Virus record (IMG/VR): IMGVR_UViG_3300028372_000211
Location: 1 to 40,206 of that record
Source of the DNA: a virus
DNA: 40,206 nucleotides
Strand: one strand, 5' to 3'
Shown: piece by piece, positions 5,980 to 31,149 of the stretch
How the letters are laid out: every line of letters begins with the position of its first letter
How positions within the stretch are numbered: position 1 is the stretch's first letter
Notes under the pieces: generated by a model
What the model was told of the DNA's origin: nothing
Seen by the model: only the letters and a program-made list of their open reading frames with translations
The model's database searches: none
Program-made: the position numbers and the translations under genes

Positions 5980-6637
5980 AGTCTGCTAGTTCCCATCCTA
6001 TATCTTGACCGTTGTGTTCCGCTCGATTAATTGCCTTCTGCACTTCACCCACATGCTTGTTATAAAAACTCTCGAAGCTGTTGTCCCAAAACTTGATATC
6101 TTTCCAAAAGAATCCTTGATCATCTTTGAGACGGTTTGTCATCTTAACTTTTGAAGGGTACTGACATCCGAATTCTTCGTCTAGCTTATCAAAGTACTTT
6201 ATCAGCACAGTTATGTCATCAATCCAATGTTTAGTGTATGTATAAGTGTCTTTCACTAGTCCCTTGTAATGAGAAGAGTATCCTATGTCGTCTCCTGGAT
6301 GACGGATTACTGTGTAGGTCCATTCTTCGCCGTTAATAGTCACTGGTTCGCAGTACATCGGCTCTGAAATCCTAAATTCTCCAGATTCGATACTGTACTC
6401 GTAGAGCCTTTTGTGACACTTCCAATCAGACTCATACCATTTTTTCTGTACAGAAAACACCAGGCCGTCGTGACGATAAAAATCAACAGCATCTTTGCCC
6501 CAATAATAAAACCCATTGTTCTGCGGCAGCCAGATATAGCTGCCTTTAACTGGGTTTACCCTAGGAATATTGTTGTGAAACTGGTCTGCACGCTCGGCAC
6601 TCCAGTTTTTTGCTTTGTTTACTAAGTCTTGTTTCAT
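5954..6637 (-). CDS. Conserved protein, larger member of the duplicated cassette (paralog of 10126-10884)
   Basis: The protein has 227 residues. The C-terminal third matches the protein at 10126-10884: YPSKVKMTNR then GFFWKDIKFWDNSFESFYNK and VGEVQK align with YPSSKFALLTR, GLYWRYLHNWNRSKEDFYHQ and VGELQK. The N-terminal half has alternating strands (FYRHDGLVFSVQKKW, GEEWTYTVIRHPG) that could be a divergent kinase N-lobe, but I cannot confirm this. The start is decided by the ribosome-binding site: AGAGG lies 6 bases before ATG 6637 but directly abuts an in-frame ATG at 6643. A minus-strand TATAAATA lies upstream at 6654-6661. It is the first gene of the minus operon and diverges from a radical SAM gene. 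Function unknown. Confidence 0.6.
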   Translation of the reverse strand: MKQDLVNKAKNWSAERADQFHNNIPRVNPVKGSYIWLPQNNGFYYWGKDAVDFYRHDGLVFSVQKKWYESDWKCHKRLYEYSIESGEFRISEPMYCEPVTINGEEWTYTVIRHPGDDIGYSSHYKGLVKDTYTYTKHWIDDITVLIKYFDKLDEEFGCQYPSKVKMTNRLKDDQGFFWKDIKFWDNSFESFYNKHVGEVQKAINRAEHNGQDIGWELADYAKDQWAK

Positions 6638-6653
6638 ATGCATCCTCTTTTTC

Positions 6654-6661
6654 TATTTATA
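6654..6661 (-). promoter_or_regulatory. T4-type late promoter TATAAATA (minus)
   Basis: This is an exact minus-strand match to the T4 late octamer TATAAATA, 16 bases before ATG 6637. The transcript leader would be about 10 bases and would contain the AGAGG ribosome-binding site. It drives the operon 6637 to 2989. It forms a divergent pair with the box at 6675-6682. Confidence 0.75.
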
Positions 6662-6674
6662 AGCAGTGCCGGCG

Positions 6675-6682
6675 TATAAATA
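6675..6682 (+). promoter_or_regulatory. T4-type late promoter TATAAATA (plus), leaderless spacing
   Basis: This is an exact plus-strand match to the T4 late octamer. Only 5 bases separate it from the ATG at 6688, and there is no Shine-Dalgarno, so the mRNA would start at or next to the initiation codon. It drives the three-gene radical SAM operon 6688-9894. Confidence 0.7.
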
Positions 6683-6687
6683 ATTTC

Positions 6688-7959
6688 ATGAACAAACCTA
6701 ACTCATGCACATTCTGCATGCACCCTTTTACAGGATTAGCCACACGCGAAGACGGAGCGATCAAAGTATGCTGTCGTAGTCAACCCATAGGCTGGATACA
6801 AGAAGAATCGTTAGAAGAAGCGTGGAACAACAAAAGCATGCAGGAAGTTCGTCGGCAAGTACTGAACAACGAACGGCCAGATGTGTGCAAACCGTGTTTC
6901 GATCTCGAAGATCAAGGCGTCGAGAGCTTACGACAGCGTCACATAGCAGGTGTTATACCAGAAGCACGGGCTAACTTGTACCCTGATGCACTAGACGCAC
7001 TGGAAGACGACTACACAATGCCCTTTGAGTTTCCTACTATGGAAATTAAAATCAACAATCTCTGTAACCTCAAGTGCAGAATGTGCAATCCTTTGGACAG
7101 TACCAGCTGGAAGGACTGGGACCAGGTAACCAAGTTTTACAAAAAAGAAAATAACTACCTCATCCCCACTGTAGATGCACTAGTAGACAAGCCCGGGCAG
7201 TACATAGGACCCTTCGACGACACGGATAATTGGTGGACTAGCTTTGAAAAACTGCTTCCCTACTTCCGCAGAGTGGAGTTCGCAGGTGGCGAACCGCTGA
7301 TGGATCCAAATCACTATAAGATCTTAGACATGCTAGCGCCATGGGGACACAATATAGAGCTAAAGTACGCGACTAACGGCACCAAGACGGGCATAGGAAA
7401 AGGCCGTACCATACACGAGTACTGGCCCAAGTTTAGAAGCGTAGCTGTAAACGTGAGCATAGACGGTATACACGACGTTTACGAATATATACGCGGCAAT
7501 GGCAAGTTTAAGGAAGTCGAAGATAACATAAAAATTATGAAGACAATACCAACAGTGAGCAGAATTGTTGGTGCATTTACTGTGCAAGCTAACAACATTC
7601 TGCAAATAGACAAGGTTATTGACTATTTCCTCAACGAGATGGGTATTGTATTTTACAGTCACAGAGTAAATTATCCTAGAGCATTGTCTGCACAAGTCTT
7701 GCCCAACGAGCTAAAAGAGCGTACAATAGTACGTCTAGAAGAAATGAAAACCGAAGTGTTAACATATCCGTTTGTACAGAGCTCAGAGCTATTGCAAAAA
7801 GTAACACTACAGCAAATACAAGATAACATAAACTTTCTCAAATCGACAGACCTAAGTGAGTATTGGCAAGACTGCGTAGACTTTAACCACAACCTAGATG
7901 CCAGTAGAAACCAGGGTCCCTTTGAAGAAGTCAACCCTGAGTTTAAACCATACGTATGA
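6688..7959 (+). CDS. Radical SAM protein with N-terminal Cys-cluster (twitch/SPASM-like) domain
   Basis: The protein has 423 residues. The N-terminal domain has CTFCMHPF (C7, C10), DGAIKVCCRS (C28, C29) and LNNERPDVCKPCFDLEDQG (C67, C70), a likely site for an auxiliary iron-sulfur cluster. The radical SAM core follows, with CNLKCRMC (C126, C130, C133; CX3CX2C) and FAGGEPLMDP (about 199-207, SAM binding). Order is therefore auxiliary domain first and radical SAM second, the reverse of standard SPASM enzymes. The proteins at 10924-12336 and 25222-26625 share this layout. The ATG at 6688 sits 5 bases after TATAAATA. It overlaps the next radical SAM gene by ATGA. Likely C-H activating chemistry on a peptide or sugar; substrate unknown. 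Confidence 0.85.
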   Translation: MNKPNSCTFCMHPFTGLATREDGAIKVCCRSQPIGWIQEESLEEAWNNKSMQEVRRQVLNNERPDVCKPCFDLEDQGVESLRQRHIAGVIPEARANLYPDALDALEDDYTMPFEFPTMEIKINNLCNLKCRMCNPLDSTSWKDWDQVTKFYKKENNYLIPTVDALVDKPGQYIGPFDDTDNWWTSFEKLLPYFRRVEFAGGEPLMDPNHYKILDMLAPWGHNIELKYATNGTKTGIGKGRTIHEYWPKFRSVAVNVSIDGIHDVYEYIRGNGKFKEVEDNIKIMKTIPTVSRIVGAFTVQANNILQIDKVIDYFLNEMGIVFYSHRVNYPRALSAQVLPNELKERTIVRLEEMKTEVLTYPFVQSSELLQKVTLQQIQDNINFLKSTDLSEYWQDCVDFNHNLDASRNQGPFEEVNPEFKPYV

Positions 7960-10923: not shown

Positions 10924-12336
10924 CTATAATAAATGTGCTAGCTCAGGAAAGACTTCTTTAGCGGAATTCCCACGAATTGCATCAAGTTTGTTTACGTACT
11001 CTTTAAAGCCCGGCAGTAGATAGCTGTTGTCTTGTGCATCCATATGATTCAACACTGCCTCCCAACGCTTCCAACCGTAAGGGTTAATCTTCCAGAAGTC
11101 GTCGTCTTGTCTGTAGTTGTCCCACAACCATTCTTTGAATTCTGCAAATATTGCACGTACCTCTTGCTTGTCTGCTTCAGGTAGAATTTGTATGCTCAGG
11201 AACGTTGGAATATATAACAAGTGCATGTTTACAAGCCCTCCGCCCATCTGTACTCCACCGGGCACAGTGCCTGCGTTCAGCTTCTTAAAGTTCGAACGAA
11301 TCTTCCATTTCATAAACTCTGGCAGGTGTTTGATATTGAAAATTTGAATTGCTGTTGCTAGGCTGGTTTGAATGTTATCAGGAGTGTTGTCTAGCATGTG
11401 CAGTGTTTTTTCAACTTGAGCAAAATCTGTTGGAAAACGAATATACTCATCACGCTCATGGCTGGCATCCATGCTGATAGCAAACTTGACCTTTCTAAAT
11501 TTCTTCCAAAGCTCTATCAACTCGTCGTCAACTAGCAGTCCGTTGGAGTTATATCGCAACAGAATCTTGTCTTGGTACCCTTGGCGTATGATCTCTTCGA
11601 TAAACATTTTATGTTCTTTGATCATTAAAGGTTCGCCGCCAGCAAAATATACCTGTTTGAGATTAGGAATCTGTTTGTACATTTCCTCCCAGAAGGTATC
11701 TTTTTCGTGCCACTTGTTATTAAACTCGCTGGCATCCCATTGCATCTGATCTTTGACCTCGTCGATCTGAAGTGTAGGAATTAGTTTCTTATGGTCTGAT
11801 ACCCATTTAGAACTGTCATGCGGTGAACACATAACACATTTGATATTACAGGTGTGTCCTAGTCTTAGATCAAGGTACTGTAACTCTTCTGGTACTGTAC
11901 CGTCTTCCTGTGTCTGTTCAATAAGATGAGGAATATCAACGCCGTCTTGGTCCCACGTCATTGTTTCCCATATACGCTTCGATACAACACCTTGCTTCTC
12001 TTCTTTGAAACACTTGGTACAACTCGCTGGCACTTCTCCGTTCAACATAGTAGTGCGAACACTTTTCATGTAATCATTGTTCCATGCTGACATAGGAGTA
12101 TCCTTGCCAAAGTTTGCAGGCTTGCCGTCCTCCATTTTAACCAGTCCTACTTCGTGATCTGTGCCCGCACCGCTAGCGTTTGCACTGCAACACAAGCGCA
12201 TATCGCCGTTAGGACGGGTAGCAAAGTGTATCCACGGGAGCACGCAGTACGTAGGTGATTCTGATACTGTTTCTATAATACGCTGGTATTTGCCTAAGGA
12301 CGTATCTTCGGGTTGCATCCAGGACTCGTCTGACAT
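10924..12336 (-). CDS. Radical SAM protein with N-terminal Cys-cluster (twitch/SPASM-like) domain
   Basis: The protein has 470 residues. The N-terminal domain has YCVLPWIHFATRPNGDMRLCC (Cys at 31, 49 and 50) and MLNGEVPASCTKCFKEEKQG (C106, C109). The radical SAM core follows with CNIKCVMC (C163, C167, C170) and FAGGEPLMIKEH. Layout and motifs match the proteins at 6688-7959 and 25222-26625. ATG at 12336 is preceded by GGAGA. It is divergent from the oxygenase operon at 12423. No strong NATAAATA box is visible upstream; TCTAAATA at 12386-12393 (minus) is one mismatch off but 49 bases away. The duplicated large and small cassette lies downstream in the same direction. Substrate unknown. Confidence 0.85.
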   Translation of the reverse strand: MSDESWMQPEDTSLGKYQRIIETVSESPTYCVLPWIHFATRPNGDMRLCCSANASGAGTDHEVGLVKMEDGKPANFGKDTPMSAWNNDYMKSVRTTMLNGEVPASCTKCFKEEKQGVVSKRIWETMTWDQDGVDIPHLIEQTQEDGTVPEELQYLDLRLGHTCNIKCVMCSPHDSSKWVSDHKKLIPTLQIDEVKDQMQWDASEFNNKWHEKDTFWEEMYKQIPNLKQVYFAGGEPLMIKEHKMFIEEIIRQGYQDKILLRYNSNGLLVDDELIELWKKFRKVKFAISMDASHERDEYIRFPTDFAQVEKTLHMLDNTPDNIQTSLATAIQIFNIKHLPEFMKWKIRSNFKKLNAGTVPGGVQMGGGLVNMHLLYIPTFLSIQILPEADKQEVRAIFAEFKEWLWDNYRQDDDFWKINPYGWKRWEAVLNHMDAQDNSYLLPGFKEYVNKLDAIRGNSAKEVFPELAHLL

Positions 12337-14791: not shown

Positions 14792-15356
14792 TTTTGAGAT
14801 AGTACCCTGGACGCAAGAACTTAACTTATCTGACTTTTACAAAGAAGCAGGACGCAGAGGATTCTCTAACAATTCTTCACAAAGAATGTTAGTGGATTGT
14901 TTTAGAAACGAACGCGAGAAACAAACTTGGCTCTTGTATTATAGAGGCGAAGCTATAGGCTCTGTAGTTGCACATTCGTTTGACGACGTTATGGAATCGA
15001 ACAGTTACCGCATAGCTGCAAGAACTTGCGTGTTTACAGACAGATTAAAAGGAATGACTTACGCTAATGGCCTTAGGGGCATCTATGTTATTACTAAGCA
15101 TCAAAACCCAACAGCACAATTTCTTATTCCTGCATGTATAGACTGGTGTCCACCTGATGCCAAACTGTACATTACTTCAAATGAGTTAGAGGCCGGAACT
15201 CAACAAAGAGTGCACAAAATATTCGGACCTGCCTTGGAAAAGACTGGCGTTATGAAACCTGTAAAAGAAGTGAACTACCGAGGCACTGATCAAACCGTAT
15301 GGCAGTTTGACCAGGACCTGTTTTTAGAGCAATTAGATTTTGCTGGTAGATGGTAA
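14784..15356 (+). CDS. GNAT-like acyltransferase, tentative
   Basis: The protein has 190 residues. LLYYRGEAIGSVVAHSF followed by a long strand RIAARTCVFTD resembles the central beta strands of the GNAT fold, and VHKIFGPALEKTG resembles a C-terminal helix-strand. The acetyl-CoA loop (Q/RxxGxG/A) is not clearly present, so the call is weak. ATG at 14784 is used; an in-frame GTG at 14775 is possible. Last gene of the plus operon. It overlaps the convergent TauD-like gene by 24 bases, so the two ends are read on both strands. Confidence 0.4.
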   Translation: MSDFEIVPWTQELNLSDFYKEAGRRGFSNNSSQRMLVDCFRNEREKQTWLLYYRGEAIGSVVAHSFDDVMESNSYRIAARTCVFTDRLKGMTYANGLRGIYVITKHQNPTAQFLIPACIDWCPPDAKLYITSNELEAGTQQRVHKIFGPALEKTGVMKPVKEVNYRGTDQTVWQFDQDLFLEQLDFAGRW

Positions 15357-16412
15357 TTTAAAGTTCTGAATGTTTGCTGTATCAACAAAATCAGTTATGA
15401 TCTCTTCGTATCTACTCTTGTAAGGCTCTTGTAAGTAAGGCTGCCAAAAACCGTCCTGCAGGTTCGAGTAGTCATGTTGTATACGGTAACACAACCGATC
15501 TTTGATATCGCCTAACCTTCTGTGCAAAGTAATTGAATTATCGAACATTAACAAATCATTATTGCTCTTATATTCGTGATCGTAAATGTACTTATCAACG
15601 AACAACTCCTTATTAATCTCATCAAACACTTTCTGACTGTCTTCTTCTGACATACCTTTGATGCTGTAAATTGTGTTTACAGAGTAATGCAAGCCTTTGA
15701 TGCCGCCTGGACTTTGAATTACTATCGGTATTTCAACACCGTCCGTAGGACACATATTACTGTGCATTACTTCGTCTTGTTCCATACGCAGTCCGGGATT
15801 GATCTTTCCCGGTGTAAACTTGTGAATCAACACCATTTCGTCAAGTTCAGAGCGAAACCTTTCAGAGACATTTTCATAGTAATCAGGAGTAGTTAAGAAC
15901 CCAGTCGACGAACCAATCATATTCTCGGCGCCTAGTAGACTAACACCTGGCGTAAATGCTAAATTGCCGCTTTCGTTTGAGTGCCACAGCAGTTCGCCTT
16001 CTGCAAACATACCAAGAGCATTGCCATTCTCGTCGCGCCGGCCGCTTACACGCATAACGTGTTTGCCTTCTGGACTATGCTCTTGCATTCTTGCAATACT
16101 CTTAAGACGCAGTTTATCCACATCTTCTATTTCAGGACTGTCTGCTATTGATGCTTGAACAACCTGTGTCCAAGTCATGCCAGGATACTTTTTCAAGATA
16201 TTGTAGCGTATTCCGTAGCGGGTATCTCCCCAACGCAAAACTCGATCTGTTTGCTTTTCCCAACCTAGGTTACAATCTCTAAGAATTGTAACGAGATTGT
16301 CCATTTGCAGGTTACCAATTTCCATCCATTCATCATCTGTTAGGTGATCAAAATCTACACCGTCGATGAATATGCCATAGTTTCCTAGGCCTGGTATCTT
16401 TGATACTTTCAT
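15333..16412 (-). CDS. TauD/TfdA-family-like dioxygenase with an altered iron ligand
   Basis: The protein has 359 residues, a normal length for gamma-butyrobetaine-hydroxylase or TauD-type enzymes. The N-terminal fifth has GNYGIFIDGVDFDHLTDDEW, a family-like opening. The ligand region is ELLWHSNESGN (H144), with Asn146 where the family has Asp or Glu. The second His is H297 in FDNSITLHRR, and R306 or R310 in DRLCYRIQHDY binds 2OG. An Asn at the carboxylate position would weaken the triad or leave a site open, as in halogenases that have Ala or Gly there; alternatively E147 could help. ATG at 16412 has GAGGA upstream. Last gene of the long minus operon. Substrate unknown. Confidence 0.75.
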   Translation of the reverse strand: MKVSKIPGLGNYGIFIDGVDFDHLTDDEWMEIGNLQMDNLVTILRDCNLGWEKQTDRVLRWGDTRYGIRYNILKKYPGMTWTQVVQASIADSPEIEDVDKLRLKSIARMQEHSPEGKHVMRVSGRRDENGNALGMFAEGELLWHSNESGNLAFTPGVSLLGAENMIGSSTGFLTTPDYYENVSERFRSELDEMVLIHKFTPGKINPGLRMEQDEVMHSNMCPTDGVEIPIVIQSPGGIKGLHYSVNTIYSIKGMSEEDSQKVFDEINKELFVDKYIYDHEYKSNNDLLMFDNSITLHRRLGDIKDRLCYRIQHDYSNLQDGFWQPYLQEPYKSRYEEIITDFVDTANIQNFKLPSTSKI

Positions 16413-20695: not shown

Positions 20696-21913
20696 TTACC
20701 TCGTGTTTCCATAATGTATAACTGTGCTTACGCTAGAAGACATCTTACGCCATGGGTCTATTATAACACTGAAAGGCGGGATCGAGCAATACAATTCGTC
20801 TCTAGCTGTCATGCCTGTGTATTCGTATGTAACCTCTGCAGAGTGTGCCATTAAAAATACCCCCGGAGCAGTTGGTTGGAAGTCATCGCCGGTGTACGGA
20901 TCAATGTATGTGGGCGAATGTCCTGCTTGCTCACAATAGTGCCCTACTAGCAAACTGTAACTACCGTCTAGATAAGGAACTCTTGGCTTGTATGCTTTGC
21001 CGTGAATATAGATCGGCATGTTATTGAGCGCTGCATGCTTGACTAGTTCTTCTGCTAGATTTTTTGCTTGTACTTCTCTGGCTGTCATCACCGAGGAAAA
21101 CAAGTCATACCCTAAATCTAACTTTTCAGCAAGATAACTTAAGGCAATATTATCGCGGGGATGGCAGCCACCACCGTCACCCATGCCTGCTGTCATATAC
21201 TGTGGGCTCATAATACGCATACTAGAATTCGCAAGTGCTTGAGTTACTACGTCTACATCGATGTTGCCTTGTTTTACTGCAACATCTTGTATCATATTAA
21301 CAAGACCAATCTTTGTAGAGATAAAGGTATTGTAAAACACTTTGATACATTCACATTCGTCCCAGGTACCAACAACGTAGCGAGGATCGTTGTCCATTAC
21401 AGTCTTATAAAAATCGACCAGCTGTTTTGCGTCACCTGTTTCCTCGCCGTCTTCTGTACCAATCATAATCATCTCTGGATTCACCATGTCCCAACTTACA
21501 CTGCCCATGGCAATAAGGTAAGGATTATACACAAAACGAGTATTACCTACTAAGTCAACAAATTGGTCTCGCGTAGTACCAGGAAGCACAGTTGATACAA
21601 GCACAAGAAGCTGATCTTTATTCATGTACTTGTTAGCTTCTTCCAAGACTTCCTTGACAATTGTATAGCTAAAGTCTTTAGGTGGTAGATGGCTCGAAGG
21701 TGCATTACCGTCGTACTCGAGATCATGCGGGGTAGGCACTGCTACAAATACTACATCCTTGCCTACAACACATTCGCCTATAGTGTCTACGACATCTACA
21801 GTATCACTACAGACCTTAGCAATATCATATCCTGTAACCGAATGCCCTTTTGCTGCAATTGCTTCTGCACAGGGCATGCCGAGCTTGCCCACACCAATAA
21901 AGCCTATGTCCAT
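20696..21913 (-). CDS. UDP-glucose/GDP-mannose dehydrogenase-like protein
   Basis: The protein has 405 residues, close to the usual length. The N-terminal Rossmann motif GFIGVGKLGMP (4-14) binds NAD; VAVPTP (58-62), LVLVSTVLPGTT and ExxKVFYNT (K191, N195) are family motifs. GDGGGCHPRDNIAL has the catalytic Cys250. The usual PEFLxEG segment is NPYLIAMGS here, so both Glu residues normally found there are missing. The enzyme family makes UDP-glucuronate-type sugars from UDP-hexoses in two NAD-dependent steps; the changes could alter the second step or the substrate. ATG at 21913 has AGGAG upstream, and AATAAGTA lies at 21939-21946. First gene of the minus operon, followed by the glycosyltransferase-like gene. 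Confidence 0.8.
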   Translation of the reverse strand: MDIGFIGVGKLGMPCAEAIAAKGHSVTGYDIAKVCSDTVDVVDTIGECVVGKDVVFVAVPTPHDLEYDGNAPSSHLPPKDFSYTIVKEVLEEANKYMNKDQLLVLVSTVLPGTTRDQFVDLVGNTRFVYNPYLIAMGSVSWDMVNPEMIMIGTEDGEETGDAKQLVDFYKTVMDNDPRYVVGTWDECECIKVFYNTFISTKIGLVNMIQDVAVKQGNIDVDVVTQALANSSMRIMSPQYMTAGMGDGGGCHPRDNIALSYLAEKLDLGYDLFSSVMTAREVQAKNLAEELVKHAALNNMPIYIHGKAYKPRVPYLDGSYSLLVGHYCEQAGHSPTYIDPYTGDDFQPTAPGVFLMAHSAEVTYEYTGMTARDELYCSIPPFSVIIDPWRKMSSSVSTVIHYGNTR

Positions 21914-23550: not shown

Positions 23551-24034
23551 AGGAAGTGTAAAACCGCGTTGGAACAACCGCTATAAAGAGTTTGAGTACG
23601 TCAGACAACCGCTTACTGACAAGGAACTAATATATTGGAAAGACCAAGGTTATAATCATCAAAACTTTACAGGCATGATGTATGACAGTACTAATCCGAT
23701 GCCTGTTTGGGTGAGAGCCGTTGCTGCTGAAATCGGACTTAACAAATGCGGATATGTGTTTTACAAAATGGTAACCGGCGATATAATGCCTATGCATGTT
23801 GACCACTATCGTCGTTATTGCCAAGTCTTTGATGTTGAGTATAAAGACGTTTGGAGAGCTATTGTTTTCTTAGAAGATTGGCAAAGTGGACACTACTTTG
23901 AAATTAACAGGCATGCATTTTGTAACTATAAAGCAGGTGATTACATTCTTTGGCAAAGTGACACACCTCACGCTGCTTCGAACATAGGAGTGGACGATAG
24001 ATACACTTTACAAATAACAGGAGTTTTAGATTGA
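23540..24034 (+). CDS. Small HxD...H...R (2OG-Fe(II) oxygenase-like) protein
   Basis: The protein has 164 residues. TGDIMPMHVDHYRRYC gives H86 and D88, DYILWQSDTPHAASNIG gives H144, and DDRYTLQITG gives R154. The full HxD...H...R set is present in a minimal jelly-roll. The strand WRAIVFLEDW before the turn is typical. ATG at 23540 overlaps the amidinotransferase by 11 bases. It may hydroxylate the product of the two upstream enzymes, but this is inferred from position only. Confidence 0.65.
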   Translation: MWIKGSVKPRWNNRYKEFEYVRQPLTDKELIYWKDQGYNHQNFTGMMYDSTNPMPVWVRAVAAEIGLNKCGYVFYKMVTGDIMPMHVDHYRRYCQVFDVEYKDVWRAIVFLEDWQSGHYFEINRHAFCNYKAGDYILWQSDTPHAASNIGVDDRYTLQITGVLD

Positions 24035-25230
24035 TTGTACGTATTGAAATAATGCACAAGGATAAGATATATGTACAAGCCGGTTATACTAGCTATACTC
24101 GTCTTCATCCTATACACAAAAGGTCTAAGAGTAGTTCTGCCTCATACCACACAGTAACAAATAAGATTGAAAGAACAGACGGCACTGCTATCGTTACGTT
24201 ATATTCTGGATGTACTAAAACTAACATAAAAGACATAATTAGGTTTATAAAAGTTAACCGAATAAAAAACGTTTACTTCTTTATCGAAGATGTTTTTAGA
24301 TTATATTCAAAGAAACATCAATTTGCATATTTAGAAACCTACGTTTTAGATTACGATCAGAAAAGCGTTAGGTCACTCGAACTGGATATGATCTCTACGA
24401 TAATAAGCAAAACTAAATGCAACTACAAAATATATCATTGCGAACAAAACGCAGACATAGTGGGAGAAAATTACAACTTAGAAATAAACTATTTTGATTG
24501 GTTTTTTCTAGATTGTATTGACATCAAGAATTCAGGAAAGCAACGTAAATATATAGAATCGAAAATTCCTATTAAACATAAAATATCGTGCTTTAATCTA
24601 CGACGAGACTGGCACCGTACTATTATTATGTCCTTGATAAAAGACTTTGACGGCACTTTTAGTCTAAATGATTCATATACAACAAAAGAGTTGATAACGA
24701 ACCCGGCTATACCACTAAAGAATTTTGGGCGGCCTATAAGCAAACGTATTGTTAAAGGAAATAAATCCTTGCTCGAATCACCCATATTATGGGATGCTGC
24801 GCCAGACAAGAATGGCAAAATAACAGCACCGACCCACAAGAATCAGTTAGATAATACAGGGGCTATTGCCGCATCATTTGTTAACGTTGTGACAGAAACC
24901 AGATTTGCATCTAGCATGCCGAACGTGTCAGAAAAAACCCTGAAACCAATTTTAGTTAAACGACCTTTTATTATGGTTGGCCCAGTAGGAACACTAGCTC
25001 ATTTGCGCGAACTAGGGTTTAAGACATTTAGCAAGTGGTGGGACGAAGGGTATGACAGCATAACTGATCACAGCAAACGCTTAGAAATGATCTATAAAAT
25101 AATAGAATCTATTAACGATATGCCATTGGATGATCTCAACACACTGCTAGAAGATATGAACAGTGTGTTAGAACACAACTTTAACAATATGTTAAAGCTC
25201 GGGGAACAAATGGGGAAGAACTTAGATTAA
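24031..25230 (+). CDS. Protein with a marine-phage glycosyltransferase-like C-terminal domain
   Basis: The protein has 399 residues. The C-terminal part (about 287-399) reads FVNVVTETRFASS then EKTLKPILVKRPFIMVGPVG, LRELGFKTF and WWDEGYDSITD. I associate this pattern with putative phage and marine bacterial glycosyltransferases, in which ExxxxKxxxxI..RPF binds the sugar donor. The N-terminal 280 residues are Lys-rich and lack motifs I recognise. The start is TTG at 24031 because AGGAG lies 7 bases upstream and the codon overlaps the previous stop as TTGA; ATG at 24052 is the alternative. Its end overlaps the convergent radical SAM gene by 9 bases within a hairpin. Acceptor unknown. Confidence 0.5.
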   Translation: MIVRIEIMHKDKIYVQAGYTSYTRLHPIHKRSKSSSASYHTVTNKIERTDGTAIVTLYSGCTKTNIKDIIRFIKVNRIKNVYFFIEDVFRLYSKKHQFAYLETYVLDYDQKSVRSLELDMISTIISKTKCNYKIYHCEQNADIVGENYNLEINYFDWFFLDCIDIKNSGKQRKYIESKIPIKHKISCFNLRRDWHRTIIMSLIKDFDGTFSLNDSYTTKELITNPAIPLKNFGRPISKRIVKGNKSLLESPILWDAAPDKNGKITAPTHKNQLDNTGAIAASFVNVVTETRFASSMPNVSEKTLKPILVKRPFIMVGPVGTLAHLRELGFKTFSKWWDEGYDSITDHSKRLEMIYKIIESINDMPLDDLNTLLEDMNSVLEHNFNNMLKLGEQMGKNLD

Positions 25231-25238
25231 GTTCTTCC
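25214..25238. terminator. Bidirectional terminator-like hairpin at convergent stops
   Basis: There is a perfect 11-bp inverted repeat, GGAAGAACTTA at 25214-25224 and TAAGTTCTTCC at 25228-25238, with a 3-base loop GAT. It contains both convergent stop codons. No long U-tract is present. The role as a shared terminator or mRNA 3' end is inferred from position and symmetry. Confidence 0.6.
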
Positions 25239-26625
25239 ATTCTCTGTACACGCCCTCCATTTCCGGAAAAGTTCCTAAGAAATCAGTGCCACGTCGACGA
25301 TCATGCTCGTCGACAAAGATTACAAAATCTTTTCGCAGTGTTTCTAGCTCGCCTCGTGACATCTTTTCATTTGAGAATACTTCTTGCAACCTGCTAAACT
25401 TGTCGCCTTCCCATTCGTAGAATCCTTGATTACAAATACTCATATCGTGCGGCGACTCTAGGTTATTGCGAATAAACTCTAGTTGTTTAGTGATGTACTT
25501 CTCATTCCATTCCGGCGGCGCAATCTTAATAGCTTGATGATCAGGATATCTGAGATACGGCACATCTAAAATAATAGGAATAGCCTTACCTGGGCCGCCA
25601 AAGTCTTTCTTAATAGCAAGGATATCTTCTAAGAACTTGTCAAAAGATATCATGCTTAACAGATTGTAGGTACACATACAAGTAAAAGTACAGCCTGGTA
25701 CTTCTGTTAGAACGCGACGAATATTGTACAACCATTTATCGTAATCTAAGCCGTGTCTAATATACTCTGCCTGGGCACCATAAGCCTCGGCGCTTGTGAA
25801 TATCTTAAACTTCTTAACCAGATTGTTGTCGCAAATATACTTTACCTTACTAAAAAACTTTTCAAACAATTCATCCGGAATGCACATATTACTGTTGACA
25901 GAGAATTCAATATTAGGCAGTGGGTTCTCAATAATGTAATCCAATACCTTAAACGTATCTTTGGCCAGCAATGGCTCGCCGCCGGTGATTCTAAAGTGAT
26001 GCAACTTGTCAGAAATCTCAGGCCACCATTTCCAAAATGCGTCCACGTATGGATTATATTCACGCACAGGAATAGGCACTGTTCCATTCTGCTCCATTGA
26101 ATGCAAGCTGTTAAATGGCTTACTAGTTTCGTACGCGCCGTGTTGCTTTATTTCATCCATCCACTTACTGCTAACCTGCGGTCCGCAATAGCTACACTTG
26201 AAATTACATACACTGCTGAAACTAACTTCTAAGTAAGTAGGCACAACGTCATGGTCCCATGGCATTGTCTTGATTTCTTCCATGTATGGCAACGCCCATG
26301 GCTCGTAGGACTTGTACGTGCGATCGCTGACAGCATCTTCGTTGCTATCTTCTACGCGCCAACAATAGTCACATTCGCTAGGGCGCTCGCCTTGCAGCAT
26401 CTTTTTACGCTGCTCTTTTTTATACTTAGTGTTATGCAACGCGCTTGGATTGTTTTCAAGCTCTTCAACAGGAATCTTGTGTGCTGTTGGGTGATGGCAG
26501 CTATGTGTCTGGCCACTGTGAAGATGCAACGTCACCTGCTTCCACTTAGCCAAACAAAAGCCTGTCCCTACTTCGTCTAATTCTTGTGTGACTGCTATTA
26601 ATCTACTGTTTGAAAAATCGCTCAC
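25222..26625 (-). CDS. Radical SAM protein with N-terminal Cys-cluster (twitch/SPASM-like) domain
   Basis: The protein has 467 residues. The N-terminal domain has FCLAKWKQVTL (C24), THSCHHP (C43) and MLQGERPSECDYCWRVEDS (C85, C88), and the core CNFKCSYC (C140, C144, C147) follows, with ITGGEPLLAKDT later. It is the third member of the family at 6688-7959 and 10924-12336; the shared signature is RxxMLxGExPxxCxxCxxxE. Start is GTG at 26625, supported by AGGAAGG upstream and a GTGA overlap with the previous stop. Last gene of the minus operon from 30096. The other genes of this operon are glycosyltransferases and two unknown proteins, which hints at a glycan or glycosylated target. Substrate unknown. 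Confidence 0.85.
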   Translation of the reverse strand: MSDFSNSRLIAVTQELDEVGTGFCLAKWKQVTLHLHSGQTHSCHHPTAHKIPVEELENNPSALHNTKYKKEQRKKMLQGERPSECDYCWRVEDSNEDAVSDRTYKSYEPWALPYMEEIKTMPWDHDVVPTYLEVSFSSVCNFKCSYCGPQVSSKWMDEIKQHGAYETSKPFNSLHSMEQNGTVPIPVREYNPYVDAFWKWWPEISDKLHHFRITGGEPLLAKDTFKVLDYIIENPLPNIEFSVNSNMCIPDELFEKFFSKVKYICDNNLVKKFKIFTSAEAYGAQAEYIRHGLDYDKWLYNIRRVLTEVPGCTFTCMCTYNLLSMISFDKFLEDILAIKKDFGGPGKAIPIILDVPYLRYPDHQAIKIAPPEWNEKYITKQLEFIRNNLESPHDMSICNQGFYEWEGDKFSRLQEVFSNEKMSRGELETLRKDFVIFVDEHDRRRGTDFLGTFPEMEGVYREWKNLI

Positions 26626-27524: not shown

Positions 27525-28095
27525 TAAAAATCCTCTTAAACTGGTACGTGTCAAATTTGCGTGATGTAAATATGCTTATAGGCTCGTCTGAATGCTCAAA
27601 CGGCATAGTGAACGGCAGTACAACATAATTATCACGCACTACGTCAGCAAGTTCAACAAAAAGAGTTTTGTAAAGAATATTAGGATCTCCTTTAGCGGTG
27701 ACGCTTAACATCATCCTGTCGTTTACGGCAACTCCTTTCCCTCTAAGACTATCGCCAAGCACTGCACCGATGTGTACCTTCCAACAAGTGTTCACAACGT
27801 CTTGGACAATCAAAATGTCTGGAGATTTGCCGACTCCTTGTGGAACATCGTAGATAAAATTGTTTACAGAATTTCCTCTCATCTGTGTGTCGTATCGACT
27901 ACCGAACTCCATCTGCTTAATCTTGGTGTTGTACCGTACTTCAAATGCAGTAGTCGAATCTTCGCCACTAATTAGCTTTCTTACTTTGTCGAGCGGCACT
28001 GGAATCGAGTTCTCGCCCGTGTACTCTGTAGCTTTGATCCCTAGTATCGATCCTGTCTCTTTATCAAATTTTACATACATCATTTTTTCAGACAT
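27514..28095 (-). CDS. Conserved phage protein of unknown function
   Basis: The protein has 193 residues. I do not recognise a family. It is rich in beta-strand-like segments (MMYVKFDKETGSILGIK, AFEVRYNTKIKQMEFG, YVVLPFTMPFEH) and has no membrane segment or Cys pattern. This could be a small structural or DNA/RNA-binding protein, but nothing proves it. ATG at 28095 with AAGGA 9 bases upstream is preferred to TTG at 28101. It overlaps both neighbours, so it is part of the glycosyltransferase operon. Confidence 0.55.
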   Translation of the reverse strand: MSEKMMYVKFDKETGSILGIKATEYTGENSIPVPLDKVRKLISGEDSTTAFEVRYNTKIKQMEFGSRYDTQMRGNSVNNFIYDVPQGVGKSPDILIVQDVVNTCWKVHIGAVLGDSLRGKGVAVNDRMMLSVTAKGDPNILYKTLFVELADVVRDNYVVLPFTMPFEHSDEPISIFTSRKFDTYQFKRIFNEQ

Positions 28096-28915
28096 TTTCA
28101 AACTTCCTTATAATTTCTGGCGTAACAAAATCATTCTCAGTGTAATGAAATATTCCGTCTTGTAAATGATTGCCTATTTTAAGCTGTACTGAATCTGTAA
28201 GGTAAACACCAACGCGACTTTGCCAAGTAACTGGTGTAGACTCCCAGCCTTGTAATCCTGGCTGCATGTGCTTAATGTAAGGTGCCGAGTATCCTCTATT
28301 TGAGATGTCGTCGTCGATGTCTAAGATACGCGACACAATCGACGTAGTAATGTCCATACTGGGTTCTTTTGGATAGTGTTCCTTACAAAAGTTACCGTAA
28401 AATAGCTCCCAGTTTTTAGTTACTAGTTCTACCCAATCGTAAAACGTGTGCGCAAGTTCAGACTTTCTAAAGTAGTGTGCTGCATTATAAAAATTCGGTA
28501 GTTCGTTTTCGCGAAACGCCGCACGGTAAGGGTTAGTCTCCTCATTAACTAGTTCGTTGCGATAGCTAAAAACTCGGCAAGGAAAGTACAAGTCGTAATT
28601 ATCAAGAAACTCCCAGAACGGTGCTTGGTTGTCTAAGACTAACACATCGCTGTCTAGCACAATTGTTTGGTCGTAAGGAGTAGCGTGGTATAGCTTCCAC
28701 CGATGTTCTGTTTTGAAACGGCTGTTTGTTAGCTCGTACCAGGGAATTTCTATTATCTTGTCAAAAACTTTTTCTTGTTTTTTAAGCAACTTGTCGTTAG
28801 TAACAATACTGACAGGGTATTCGTTGCCACTTGCTTTTATACTTAATGCACAGAGGTAGGCTTGCGTGACATATTCTTTACCCTCTGCATATATTAGGAA
28901 TCCTTTACTGCTCAT
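28088..28915 (-). CDS. GT8-like glycosyltransferase
   Basis: The protein has 275 residues. KGFLIYAEGKEYVTQAYLCALSIK and SIVTND form the nucleotide-binding opening, and QTIVLDSDVLVLD (D88, D90) is the DxD metal site. NAAHYFRKSE and the later GLQGWESTP match retaining GT8-type enzymes in order and spacing. Paralog of the protein at 28905-29750 just upstream. ATG at 28915 lies inside the previous gene's end; an in-frame TTG at 28918 is an alternative. Donor and acceptor unknown. Confidence 0.65.
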   Translation of the reverse strand: MSSKGFLIYAEGKEYVTQAYLCALSIKASGNEYPVSIVTNDKLLKKQEKVFDKIIEIPWYELTNSRFKTEHRWKLYHATPYDQTIVLDSDVLVLDNQAPFWEFLDNYDLYFPCRVFSYRNELVNEETNPYRAAFRENELPNFYNAAHYFRKSELAHTFYDWVELVTKNWELFYGNFCKEHYPKEPSMDITTSIVSRILDIDDDISNRGYSAPYIKHMQPGLQGWESTPVTWQSRVGVYLTDSVQLKIGNHLQDGIFHYTENDFVTPEIIRKFENV

Positions 28916-29750
28916 CAATGCACCTGTTTAAGCTAAATTTGTTCATCACGTGAACATTAGCATCTTTAATTCTAAACGCTGTATACTCGCCGGCGTACTT
29001 GGGCTTCTCTAACAGAATAAACAAACTGTCGCCGTCGATGCTCCAAAGTATTGACTTGTCTGTAATGTAATAAAGACTGCCGGGCATAGGTTTAACAAAA
29101 TTGCCTGGTTGGTACCCGTTCATAACATGGATTGCCATACTAAACGCAAAATCATTTCGATACAAAGAACGACTTAGTTGAAAGACGTTGCTGTAATGTT
29201 TCCAATTTTCTTGTATGTGCTGCACTAAGTCAAAAAACACTTTGTTAGTTTCAGACTTACGGAAGAAAATAACAGTTGCCCAGTAAAAATCTACACTTGT
29301 GTCTGAGATTGTCTCAAACTCCTTGCCACGATCTATACCTGTTATGTCAACACAATCTTTGTACATCAGTAAATCGTGATGATTATCAAAACACTTCAGG
29401 AAACTGTTATTGGATATAACCACGTCAGTATCAAGAACAAGAGTTTCGTCATACGGTGACATCTCATATGACTTTGGTCGCAGGTCATTCTTCCATTCTA
29501 ATCTTTTAGAAGCTAGAGCGCCGTCGTTAAACGCTTTGACGTTGTCTGTTAGTTTGTAAGCAACAGGAATGACATTGTCGAACACTGTGTCGGCATCTTC
29601 ATAGACTGTTCGCAGGTATTTTTCACTATCTGTGACAATCGTAGTCGGAAGTCCTAGGTATTCCTTTGCTCGTTGTGCAAGAAAATATGCCTGCTTTACA
29701 TAGTCAACATGCGAATTGTTGCTCGCAAACACTAGTATGCCTTTAGTCAT
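28905..29750 (-). CDS. GT8-like glycosyltransferase
   Basis: The protein has 281 residues. GILVFASNNSHVDYVKQAYFLAQ and TTIVTDSEKYL open the domain, and DETLVLDTDVVIS (D107, D109) is the DxD site. It aligns with the downstream 275-aa protein in the first 110 residues and in the FFRKSE segment, so the pair is a tandem duplication. ATG at 29750 overlaps the stop of the 117-aa gene. Two related transferases next to each other usually add successive sugars; this is inference. Confidence 0.65.
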   Translation of the reverse strand: MTKGILVFASNNSHVDYVKQAYFLAQRAKEYLGLPTTIVTDSEKYLRTVYEDADTVFDNVIPVAYKLTDNVKAFNDGALASKRLEWKNDLRPKSYEMSPYDETLVLDTDVVISNNSFLKCFDNHHDLLMYKDCVDITGIDRGKEFETISDTSVDFYWATVIFFRKSETNKVFFDLVQHIQENWKHYSNVFQLSRSLYRNDFAFSMAIHVMNGYQPGNFVKPMPGSLYYITDKSILWSIDGDSLFILLEKPKYAGEYTAFRIKDANVHVMNKFSLNRCIDEQ

Positions 29751-30096
29751 GGTCTGTTAGTTTCTCCACAGACCGATTGTTCTTGAGTCTGGTGTATTCA
29801 GCATGGAAAGTGTTGGTGGCAGAGAAGTAGACATCAGTAATATCGTCTAAGAAGGCTTCTAAATCGCTGATCATTGCGGGAGTCTCGTTGTCGTCTACAA
29901 GCACAACGTCTTCGACATACTCTTTTTCTACTAGCATTGTTACAAATGTCATCAGTTCTTTGGTCACTGTAAACTGTGCGCCGGCATGATAAAAGATAAT
30001 TTGTTCGCGGTATTTTTCTTTGAGAATACGCTTCTGGTTGTTAAGCGTGATCATGTAATTTGAAAAGTCTAATGCTTTTTCAAGTCGTTCGTCCAT
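29743..30096 (-). CDS. Small conserved T4-like marine phage protein
   Basis: The protein has 117 residues. ALDFSNYMITLNNQKRILKEKYREQ, GAQFTVTKELMTFVTMLVE and an acidic stretch before DITDVYF give a mostly helical, charged protein. I recall similar small proteins in marine T4-like phages, but I do not know a function. ATG at 30096 has AGGAG 6 bases upstream, sequestered in a hairpin in read-through transcripts. A sigma70-like promoter lies directly upstream. First gene of the operon that continues to 25222. Confidence 0.7.
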   Translation of the reverse strand: MDERLEKALDFSNYMITLNNQKRILKEKYREQIIFYHAGAQFTVTKELMTFVTMLVEKEYVEDVVLVDDNETPAMISDLEAFLDDITDVYFSATNTFHAEYTRLKNNRSVEKLTDHD

Positions 30097-30102
30097 AGAA
30101 GT

Positions 30103-30136
30103 CTCCTAGTCATACTATATTTTATGACATTAGGAG
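30103..30136 (-). promoter_or_regulatory. RNA hairpin sequestering the ribosome-binding site of the gene at 30096
   Basis: On the minus RNA the arm CTCCTAATGTCATA (30136-30123) pairs with TATGACTAGGAG (30114-30103), two 6-bp stems with a 2-base bulge and an 8-base loop. The AGGAG of the second arm is the Shine-Dalgarno of ATG 30096. Transcripts coming from the upstream tail-fibre gene would carry both arms; transcripts from the promoter inside would lack the first arm. Confidence 0.5.
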
Positions 30137-30147
30137 CATCTAGTCAA
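30119..30147 (-). promoter_or_regulatory. Sigma70-like promoter TTGACT-N17-TAAAAT
   Basis: The minus strand has TTGACT (30147-30142), a 17-base spacer and TAAAAT (30124-30119). Each hexamer matches the sigma70 consensus at 5 of 6 positions. Expected start is near 30112, giving a leader of about 16 bases with AGGAG. It contrasts with the NATAAATA boxes elsewhere and suggests host-polymerase (early) expression of the 30096 operon. Confidence 0.5.
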
Positions 30148-30150
30148 CCA

Positions 30151-31116
30151 TTATTGGAAACTATTTACTACAACATAGGCAGGAAACGGCACTTCGACTG
30201 CGCCTACTGCGCGCCGGCCGCCATATTGCATTGTGATGTCAGCGGTTACTGGTTCGTTTACGCCGCCGTATACGCTGCCTCTTGCAAGACCGTCCGAATC
30301 ACTTTCTGGACCGCCGTCAAACAGTCTAACCCTGAATCTAACAGTAGATGCAGATGTCGAACGCACTTCAAGCGTCCAGTAGCTATTTGAATATACTGCG
30401 CCAGCAGCTTGTTTTCTAAAAATTTCGGTATAAGTGCCAGTTACTTGATCATTACCAAAGTTGTTACCTTGCGGAAACGTAAGGTTTAACGCGCCGACGT
30501 TCGTTACGCCAACTGAATTACGATCAAACAAAATAATCCCCGGGTTTTCAATCATGTCTTTCCACCCCTGGTTACGTTGTAAGCTATCTGATCCGGATGT
30601 TATATTATCAACAAAACCAGAGACACGTACTTGGCCGCCTGTATTAAAGAAATGACGTCTTTTATTGGAAGATGCAAACGAGAGTTCAAACTCCGAGGTT
30701 ATTGTAACTCGACTCCACTGGCTTGTACGTGCATTAGAGGTTATTGCAGTTACCGCTTCGACTTGAGTTGGGTCAAAATCAAACCTATTAGTCTCTAACG
30801 TGGACATTAGATCTAGGTAATCTTGAAACCCTTTTGTTTCGTCGCCACCACTTATTTCAGCAGCTACAAGATCGCCTGTTGTTATCTCTGTTAGTTGAAT
30901 AGGCTGACCGGTTTGGAACGTATATGCTTTCTCAAGATCAGTCCGTAGTTTAGCCATTCTAGCTGCTGTCACAGTACTGCCTATACCTATTTGAGAACTA
31001 GTTACTGTTTGCCCGTATCCGAACGTACTTGTACCAGTGCCTAATAGTCTTTGCAATCTGCTCTGTAAGCTGTTGTATTCTGAGGCTAAAATTCTACCGC
31101 CTGAAGTAACTGCCAT
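30151..31116 (-). CDS. Tail-fibre or virion structural protein
   Basis: The protein has 321 residues. It begins MAVTSGGRILASEYNSLQSRLQRLLG, an opening I associate with small marine T4-like structural proteins. The rest is strand-rich and Gly/Ser/Thr-rich with a middle section FNTGGQVRVSGFVDNI and SNSYWTLEVRSTSAS, consistent with an extended beta-structure. There is no enzymatic motif. ATG at 31116 has AAGGA 8 bases upstream and a TATAAATA 25 bases upstream. Last gene of the structural block. Confidence 0.7.
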   Translation of the reverse strand: MAVTSGGRILASEYNSLQSRLQRLLGTGTSTFGYGQTVTSSQIGIGSTVTAARMAKLRTDLEKAYTFQTGQPIQLTEITTGDLVAAEISGGDETKGFQDYLDLMSTLETNRFDFDPTQVEAVTAITSNARTSQWSRVTITSEFELSFASSNKRRHFFNTGGQVRVSGFVDNITSGSDSLQRNQGWKDMIENPGIILFDRNSVGVTNVGALNLTFPQGNNFGNDQVTGTYTEIFRKQAAGAVYSNSYWTLEVRSTSASTVRFRVRLFDGGPESDSDGLARGSVYGGVNEPVTADITMQYGGRRAVGAVEVPFPAYVVVNSFQ

Positions 31117-31141: not shown

Positions 31142-31149
31142 TATTTATA
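31142..31149 (-). promoter_or_regulatory. T4-type late promoter TATAAATA
   Basis: Exact minus-strand TATAAATA, 25 bases before ATG 31116. It overlaps the TAA stop of the upstream tail-fibre gene (GTA TAA ATA). It gives the last structural gene its own late transcript. Confidence 0.75.

Follow-up and report, generated by a model that had tools for sequence, protein, structure and literature searches.

A sigma70-type promoter inside a hairpin over a ribosome-binding site: a probable read-through insulator in uncultured T4-type phages

In a 40,206-base record of an uncultured virus (the window, that is the whole stretch of DNA analysed here), a gap of 54 nt on the minus strand separates a tail-fibre-like gene from the gene for a 117-aa protein, the first gene of an operon. 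A sigma70-type promoter and a hairpin overlap in this gap, and the Shine-Dalgarno sequence of the 117-aa gene is part of the hairpin. This raises the question whether RNA that reads through from the upstream gene and RNA that is started within the gap are translated differently.

The promoter and the hairpin in the gap

The features concerned are the following:

31142..31149, minus strand: TATAAATA, a motif of T4-type late promoters, 25 nt ahead of the upstream gene's start; enriched at the orthologues
30151..31116, minus strand: upstream gene (321 aa), tail-fibre-like by its position in the tail gene cluster; putative source of the read-through RNA
30142..30147, minus strand: TTGACT, the -35 element of the internal promoter (sigma70-type); among the first relatives, 21 of 23 clusters keep TTGAC[A/T]
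30141-30125, minus strand: 17-nt spacer between TTGACT and TAAAAT
30123..30136, minus strand: left hairpin arm as predicted by folding, CTCCTA (30136-30131) and GTCATA (30128-30123) with a 2-nt bulge (at)
30119..30124, minus strand: -10 element TAAAAT, split between left arm (two bases) and loop (four)
30122-30115, minus strand: loop AAATATAG, 8 nt, as predicted by folding
30103..30114, minus strand: right hairpin arm as predicted by folding, TATGAC (30114-30109) and TAGGAG (30108-30103)
30112, minus strand: predicted transcription start within the right arm, the 7th base after the -10 element according to promoter geometry
30107-30103, minus strand: Shine-Dalgarno sequence AGGAG of the open reading frame 30096..29743, inside the right arm
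29743..30096, minus strand: gene for the 117-aa protein, with which the operon under control begins; members of its family come from uncultured phages only
28905..29750, minus strand: next gene, a conserved 281-aa protein, overlapping the 117-aa gene by 8 nt
28088..28918, minus strand: gene for a 276-aa protein, weakly glycosyltransferase-like (Pfam Mannosyl_trans3, E 0.006, below the cut-off; phrog_1903)

The stop codon of the upstream gene is located 3 nt before the -35 element, and the 12-bp hairpin (30136-30103) overlaps the promoter (30147-30119). The preliminary description had placed the promoter across the first arm and the loop. This applies to the -10 element, which straddles the end of the arm and the loop, and to the spacer, which gives most of the arm; the -35 element, in contrast, lies just 5´ of the arm. 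The fold has an energy of -19.5 kcal/mol compared to a mean of -9.3 for shuffled sequences (z -4.0), and one of 200 shuffles was equally good. Rfam covariance models gave no match to the hairpin up to an E of 1. The promoter matches at 10 of 12 positions, and since 31 such promoters were found in a 12-kb scan with 26.5 expected, the promoter alone is not significant in the window sequence. It is the comparative evidence from relatives that takes both the promoter and the pairing far beyond chance. With this z value and with pairing and promoter conserved in relatives, the promoter and the hairpin over the AGGAG, first noticed in the window alone, prove to be a real feature.

The arrangement suggests a simple mechanism. 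The spacer and the -10 element of the promoter would form the left arm, which closes the ribosome-binding site of the operon. Read-through RNA from the upstream late promoter would contain both arms and would be poorly translated at the start of the 117-aa gene. The left arm is missing from promoter-started RNA if the geometry of the promoter gives the correct start; such RNA, started at about 30112, would begin within the right arm, would not form the hairpin and would be translated. The operon would thereby be insulated from read-through, and only RNA from its own promoter would be well translated. A sigma70-type promoter behind a gene of the gp55-type late class would probably be expressed early, and the operon would be translationally silent late. 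Here, the start site, the folding in the cell, the translational block and the timing are what we infer. From the sequence data we consider it likely that the element is a read-through insulator, probably on early and off late, and thus the device of the T4 genes e, soc and I-TevI with the promoter classes exchanged.

The gene order is kept in the 10 loci checked, with a gene of about 300-370 aa, the gap, the 117-aa gene, two genes of about 280 aa and one of about 190 aa. Protein family searches gave no family match for the 321-aa upstream gene itself, and searches of Pfam, PHROGs and PDB sequences yielded nothing firm on the function of the operon proteins. The AlphaFold2 model of the 117-aa protein (pLDDT 91) resembles a protein of an uncultured phage (Foldseek, TM 0.82) and weakly the DUF4376 phage proteins (Foldseek, E 4e-4); a fold search of the model against the PDB gave no match at E<=0.001, and sequence searches gave neither a family nor a transposase match. 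The DUF4376-like fold of the model together with the tail-fibre neighbour could mean that the 117-aa protein has a role in late assembly, which would speak against a strict timing function of the hairpin.

Elsewhere in the window, a perfect 11-bp inverted repeat (25214-25238), terminator-like on both strands, is located where the convergent genes 24031..25230 and 25222..26625 meet. The 40-kb window also contains three separate radical-SAM-like genes (6610-7959, plus strand; 10924-12336 and 25222-26625, minus strand), a taurine-dioxygenase-like gene (15333-16412) and a UDP-glucose dehydrogenase-like gene (20696-21913).

Promoter and pairing in the relatives

Viral contigs were searched with five members of the family of the 117-aa protein, which yielded 188 usable loci, all of them uncultured; when the 62 nt ahead of the start are compared, these form 72 clusters at less than 80% identity. 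No cultured phage relatives of the family were found by tblastn with three different members, and a DNA search was likewise empty. Of the 23 clusters of the first set, 21 have in their gap a promoter of the form TTGAC[A/T]-N16/17-TA...T that matches at 10 or more of 12 positions; among random 75-nt stretches from the loci of the first relatives, about 3% do. The larger set has a sigma70-type promoter in the gap of 53 of 72 clusters.

Pairing was measured as the cost of opening the initiation region from -13 to +6, for read-through RNA and for RNA started 7 nt after the -10 element. This measure replaced the accessibility of the Shine-Dalgarno core alone, which reached p<0.05 in just 3 of 21 clusters, since in many clades it is the start codon or the flanks that are closed. 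For the 53 clusters with a promoter, the mean predicted opening cost is 9.2 kcal/mol in read-through RNA and 3.4 kcal/mol in promoter-started RNA. For the locus identical in sequence to the window (L002), the values are 14.0 kcal/mol with 60 nt of read-through and 2.3 kcal/mol for the promoter-started RNA. That read-through would hide the AGGAG and that RNA from the internal promoter would not, as proposed at the outset, is strongly supported by comparative sequence.

A hairpin might also arise as a by-product where an AT-rich promoter and a Shine-Dalgarno sequence meet in a short gap, and shuffled or swapped spacers do still pair to some extent, about 3 kcal/mol above the promoter-started RNA. 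Native pairing is stronger than this, with the hexamers and the Shine-Dalgarno sequence fixed. When the 17-nt spacer alone was shuffled and the hexamers and all downstream sequence were left as they are, the opening cost of the read-through RNA was 6.4 kcal/mol instead of 9.2, with p<0.05 in 24 of the 53 clusters (Fisher 6e-16). Thinning to more different clusters keeps the pairing excess (32 clusters, 7e-12; 21 clusters with less than 65% identity, 1e-7; 10 clusters, 1e-4; Fisher). Real spacers from other clusters, when swapped in, lowered the opening cost from 9.2 to 6.4 kcal/mol as well (Fisher 2e-10), which shows that the pairing is specific to each sequence, with a tendency of each left arm to match the right arm of its own cluster. 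Six long relatives have 76 other sigma70-type promoters close to starts, and at these there was no such effect (1.9 versus 1.8 kcal/mol), which further speaks against a by-product. This explanation is already disfavoured, and we regard it as very improbable.

The upstream sequence adds 6.1 kcal/mol to the opening cost here compared to 2.2 kcal/mol at 109 other Shine-Dalgarno genes in the same loci (p 4e-15), and a gain above 5 kcal/mol is found in 58% here and in 10% of those genes. In one clade the arms covary, with a 7-bp stem in which 91% of the cells are paired and with changes from G-C to C-G and from A-U to G-C. About 10 of the 53 promoter clusters have no native pairing excess (L012, L073, L296, L304, L305 and others). 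In L010, a close relative of L002, the left arm is altered such that a mismatch faces the Shine-Dalgarno sequence and the stem is weakened; the read-through opening cost of L010 is 6.6 compared to 16.3 in the sister locus L009.

The inverted repeat could instead be a DNA operator, a palindrome over the -10 element and the start that is bound by a phage or host protein and represses the promoter. In most clusters the centre of the repeat falls on the -10/+1 region, a subgroup has a similar half site (TGTTGTAT...), and in the relative G002 a TATAAC -10 element is surrounded by repeated palindromes which do not touch the ribosome site. However, the arm sequences vary freely between clades with pairing retained, and G-U pairs are frequent in the stem of the covarying clade (19 of 91 cells). 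In addition, the right arm tracks the ribosome-binding region, and spacer swaps among homologous promoters weaken the effect. An operator is in our view quite improbable.

It might also be that the hairpin acts by processing, decay or partial termination of the read-through RNA, for instance as an entry point for RNase III or RNase E, and not by hiding the site. In several clades (L019, L028, L040, L070) the stem abuts the Shine-Dalgarno sequence rather than covering it, which would suit such a role, and the T4 protein RegB, which cuts early RNAs at initiation regions (PMC3014915), has been counted in favour of it. Against processing, no terminator-like site was found in the gap in a scan of the window, and it is the opening cost of the initiation region itself that exceeds shuffles and swaps. 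The stems, mostly of 6-13 bp, are moreover short for RNase III. We think that this explanation is unlikely, and that hiding of the ribosome-binding site in read-through RNA is the better reading.

Late transcription from upstream and exchange of the promoter

The long relatives are T4-type phages: a member of the gp23 capsid family was found in nine of 10 and a gp55-like late-sigma family in all 10 tested. The motif ATAAATA shows an excess of about 20- to 50-fold ahead of genes in six long relatives, as expected of T4-type late promoters (PMC1524935, PMC2984593). In 31 of 71 clusters it occurs no more than 60 nt from where the upstream gene starts, with an expectation of about 1%; one of 71 has it before the 117-aa gene. 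Since the late motif is located upstream and the scan of the gap revealed no terminator-like site, late RNA would be expected to continue across the hairpin. The possibility that the hairpin of the window itself has a T4-late promoter was rejected, TATAAATA being absent there.

Conserved promoter, conserved pairing, the late-promoter motif upstream and the gp55 homologues in relatives are all computed, and the latter two lead to the prediction that late read-through is silenced and sigma70 RNA is translated. The switch from early on to late off, which had been suggested from the window, is therefore a reasonable reading of these data. It is probably not a fixed rule, since 13 of 72 clusters are late-like and insulation seems to be the constant feature. 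Sigma70 promoters might in addition stay active late in phages without AsiA and MotA, which would count against the reading as a timing device.

The late-like clusters are defined by NTAAATA 21-28 nt before the start, found in 13 of the 19 clusters without a sigma70 promoter and in none of the 53 with one (p 4e-10). The hairpin is retained in these 13 clusters (Fisher 6e-7) and the motif lies inside it; an RNA started 6 nt after NTAAATA, as in T4, would again miss most of the left arm. Six of the 13 have ATAAATA, CTAAATA or GTAAATA, all three of which occur in excess ahead of genes in the long relatives. TTAAATA, unlike these three, is not clearly enriched as a genome-wide late promoter in the long relatives, so that the other seven late-like clusters are weaker cases, assigned by the position of the motif only. 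On the protein tree, in which many forks are unresolved, the late-like group needs three changes.

A late-like motif in a retained hairpin in 13 clusters indicates that the constant function is probably insulation from read-through and that early/late timing is not the invariant part. The data lean slightly towards a conserved insulator in which sigma70-type promoter and NTAAATA were swapped on about three branches with the hairpin kept; most lineages would then invert the logic of T4 e, their operon being translatable only from its own early promoter.

Known devices and further loci

Hairpins with internal late promoters are described for e, soc, 49 and I-TevI of T4 and also for I-TevII, I-TevIII, segB and mobE of Aeh1 (PMC3014915, PMC2988022). 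As in e, soc and I-TevI, the helix in the read-through RNA is predicted to close the initiation region, the promoter overlaps the 5´ arm (30147-30103 and the 53 clusters, with the start predicted), and the phages are T4-type. In T4, the hairpins silence read-through RNA of the early and middle classes, and the gene is opened by a late promoter, whereas here the read-through would come from a late-type promoter, as judged by motifs (31149-31142 in the window, ATAAATA at the orthologues). The internal promoter also differs, being sigma70-type in 53 of 72 clusters and not T4-type late, and the gene is neither a homing endonuclease, like I-TevI, nor a lysozyme, like e.

The transposase genes of IS10 and IS50 (Tn5) are subject to fold-back inhibition of read-through RNA, the hairpin coming from the transposon ends. 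There too, a gene is shielded from outside transcription by a hairpin that only read-through RNA forms; here, however, the hairpin is located in the gap of a phage operon without a transposase and not at the end of an element. The stem in seg43 of Aeromonas phage 25 ends just before the Shine-Dalgarno sequence, as in L019, L040 and L070, but the part of the report considered here describes no internal sigma70 promoter for that hairpin (PMC2988022).

If the proposed insulation is correct, the promoter-in-hairpin device also works in reverse in T4-type phages, and an early-type operon can sit within a late cluster without late translation. Abundant RNA from such an operon at a late stage of infection would then not necessarily be a sign of protein. 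Since the arms change together across dozens of lineages and the promoter class is exchangeable, these loci provide a natural series for testing hairpin strength against the translation block.

The idea that sigma70-type promoters are generally located in hairpins was rejected: the 76 among 1,336 starts in six long relatives that have such a promoter are no more closed than the rest. Three sites in G002 (217241 and 223783, minus strand; 293469, plus strand) have similar sigma70-type promoters with a palindrome around the TATAAC -10 element and an open ribosome site. The palindrome GCCCTATGC...GCATAGGGC is present in two of them and partly kept in the third, and these sites are a possible operator class.

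The same combination, a sigma70-type promoter enclosed by a very strong hairpin at the ribosome site, occurs in a second gene family (MxMHL..., about 128-148 aa). In G002 its member is a 128-aa gene at 264401, plus strand (L094:4401), with an opening cost of 23 versus 5; in the relatives of this gene (L311, L312, L313) the arms are changed and still paired, and a further member with the promoter in a hairpin is found in G021 at 27753, minus strand. Finally, a promoter inside a start-closing hairpin was also observed on the plus strand at G024 155539 and G021 64378, before genes for products of 186 aa (kinase-like by its first residues) and 54 aa, respectively.
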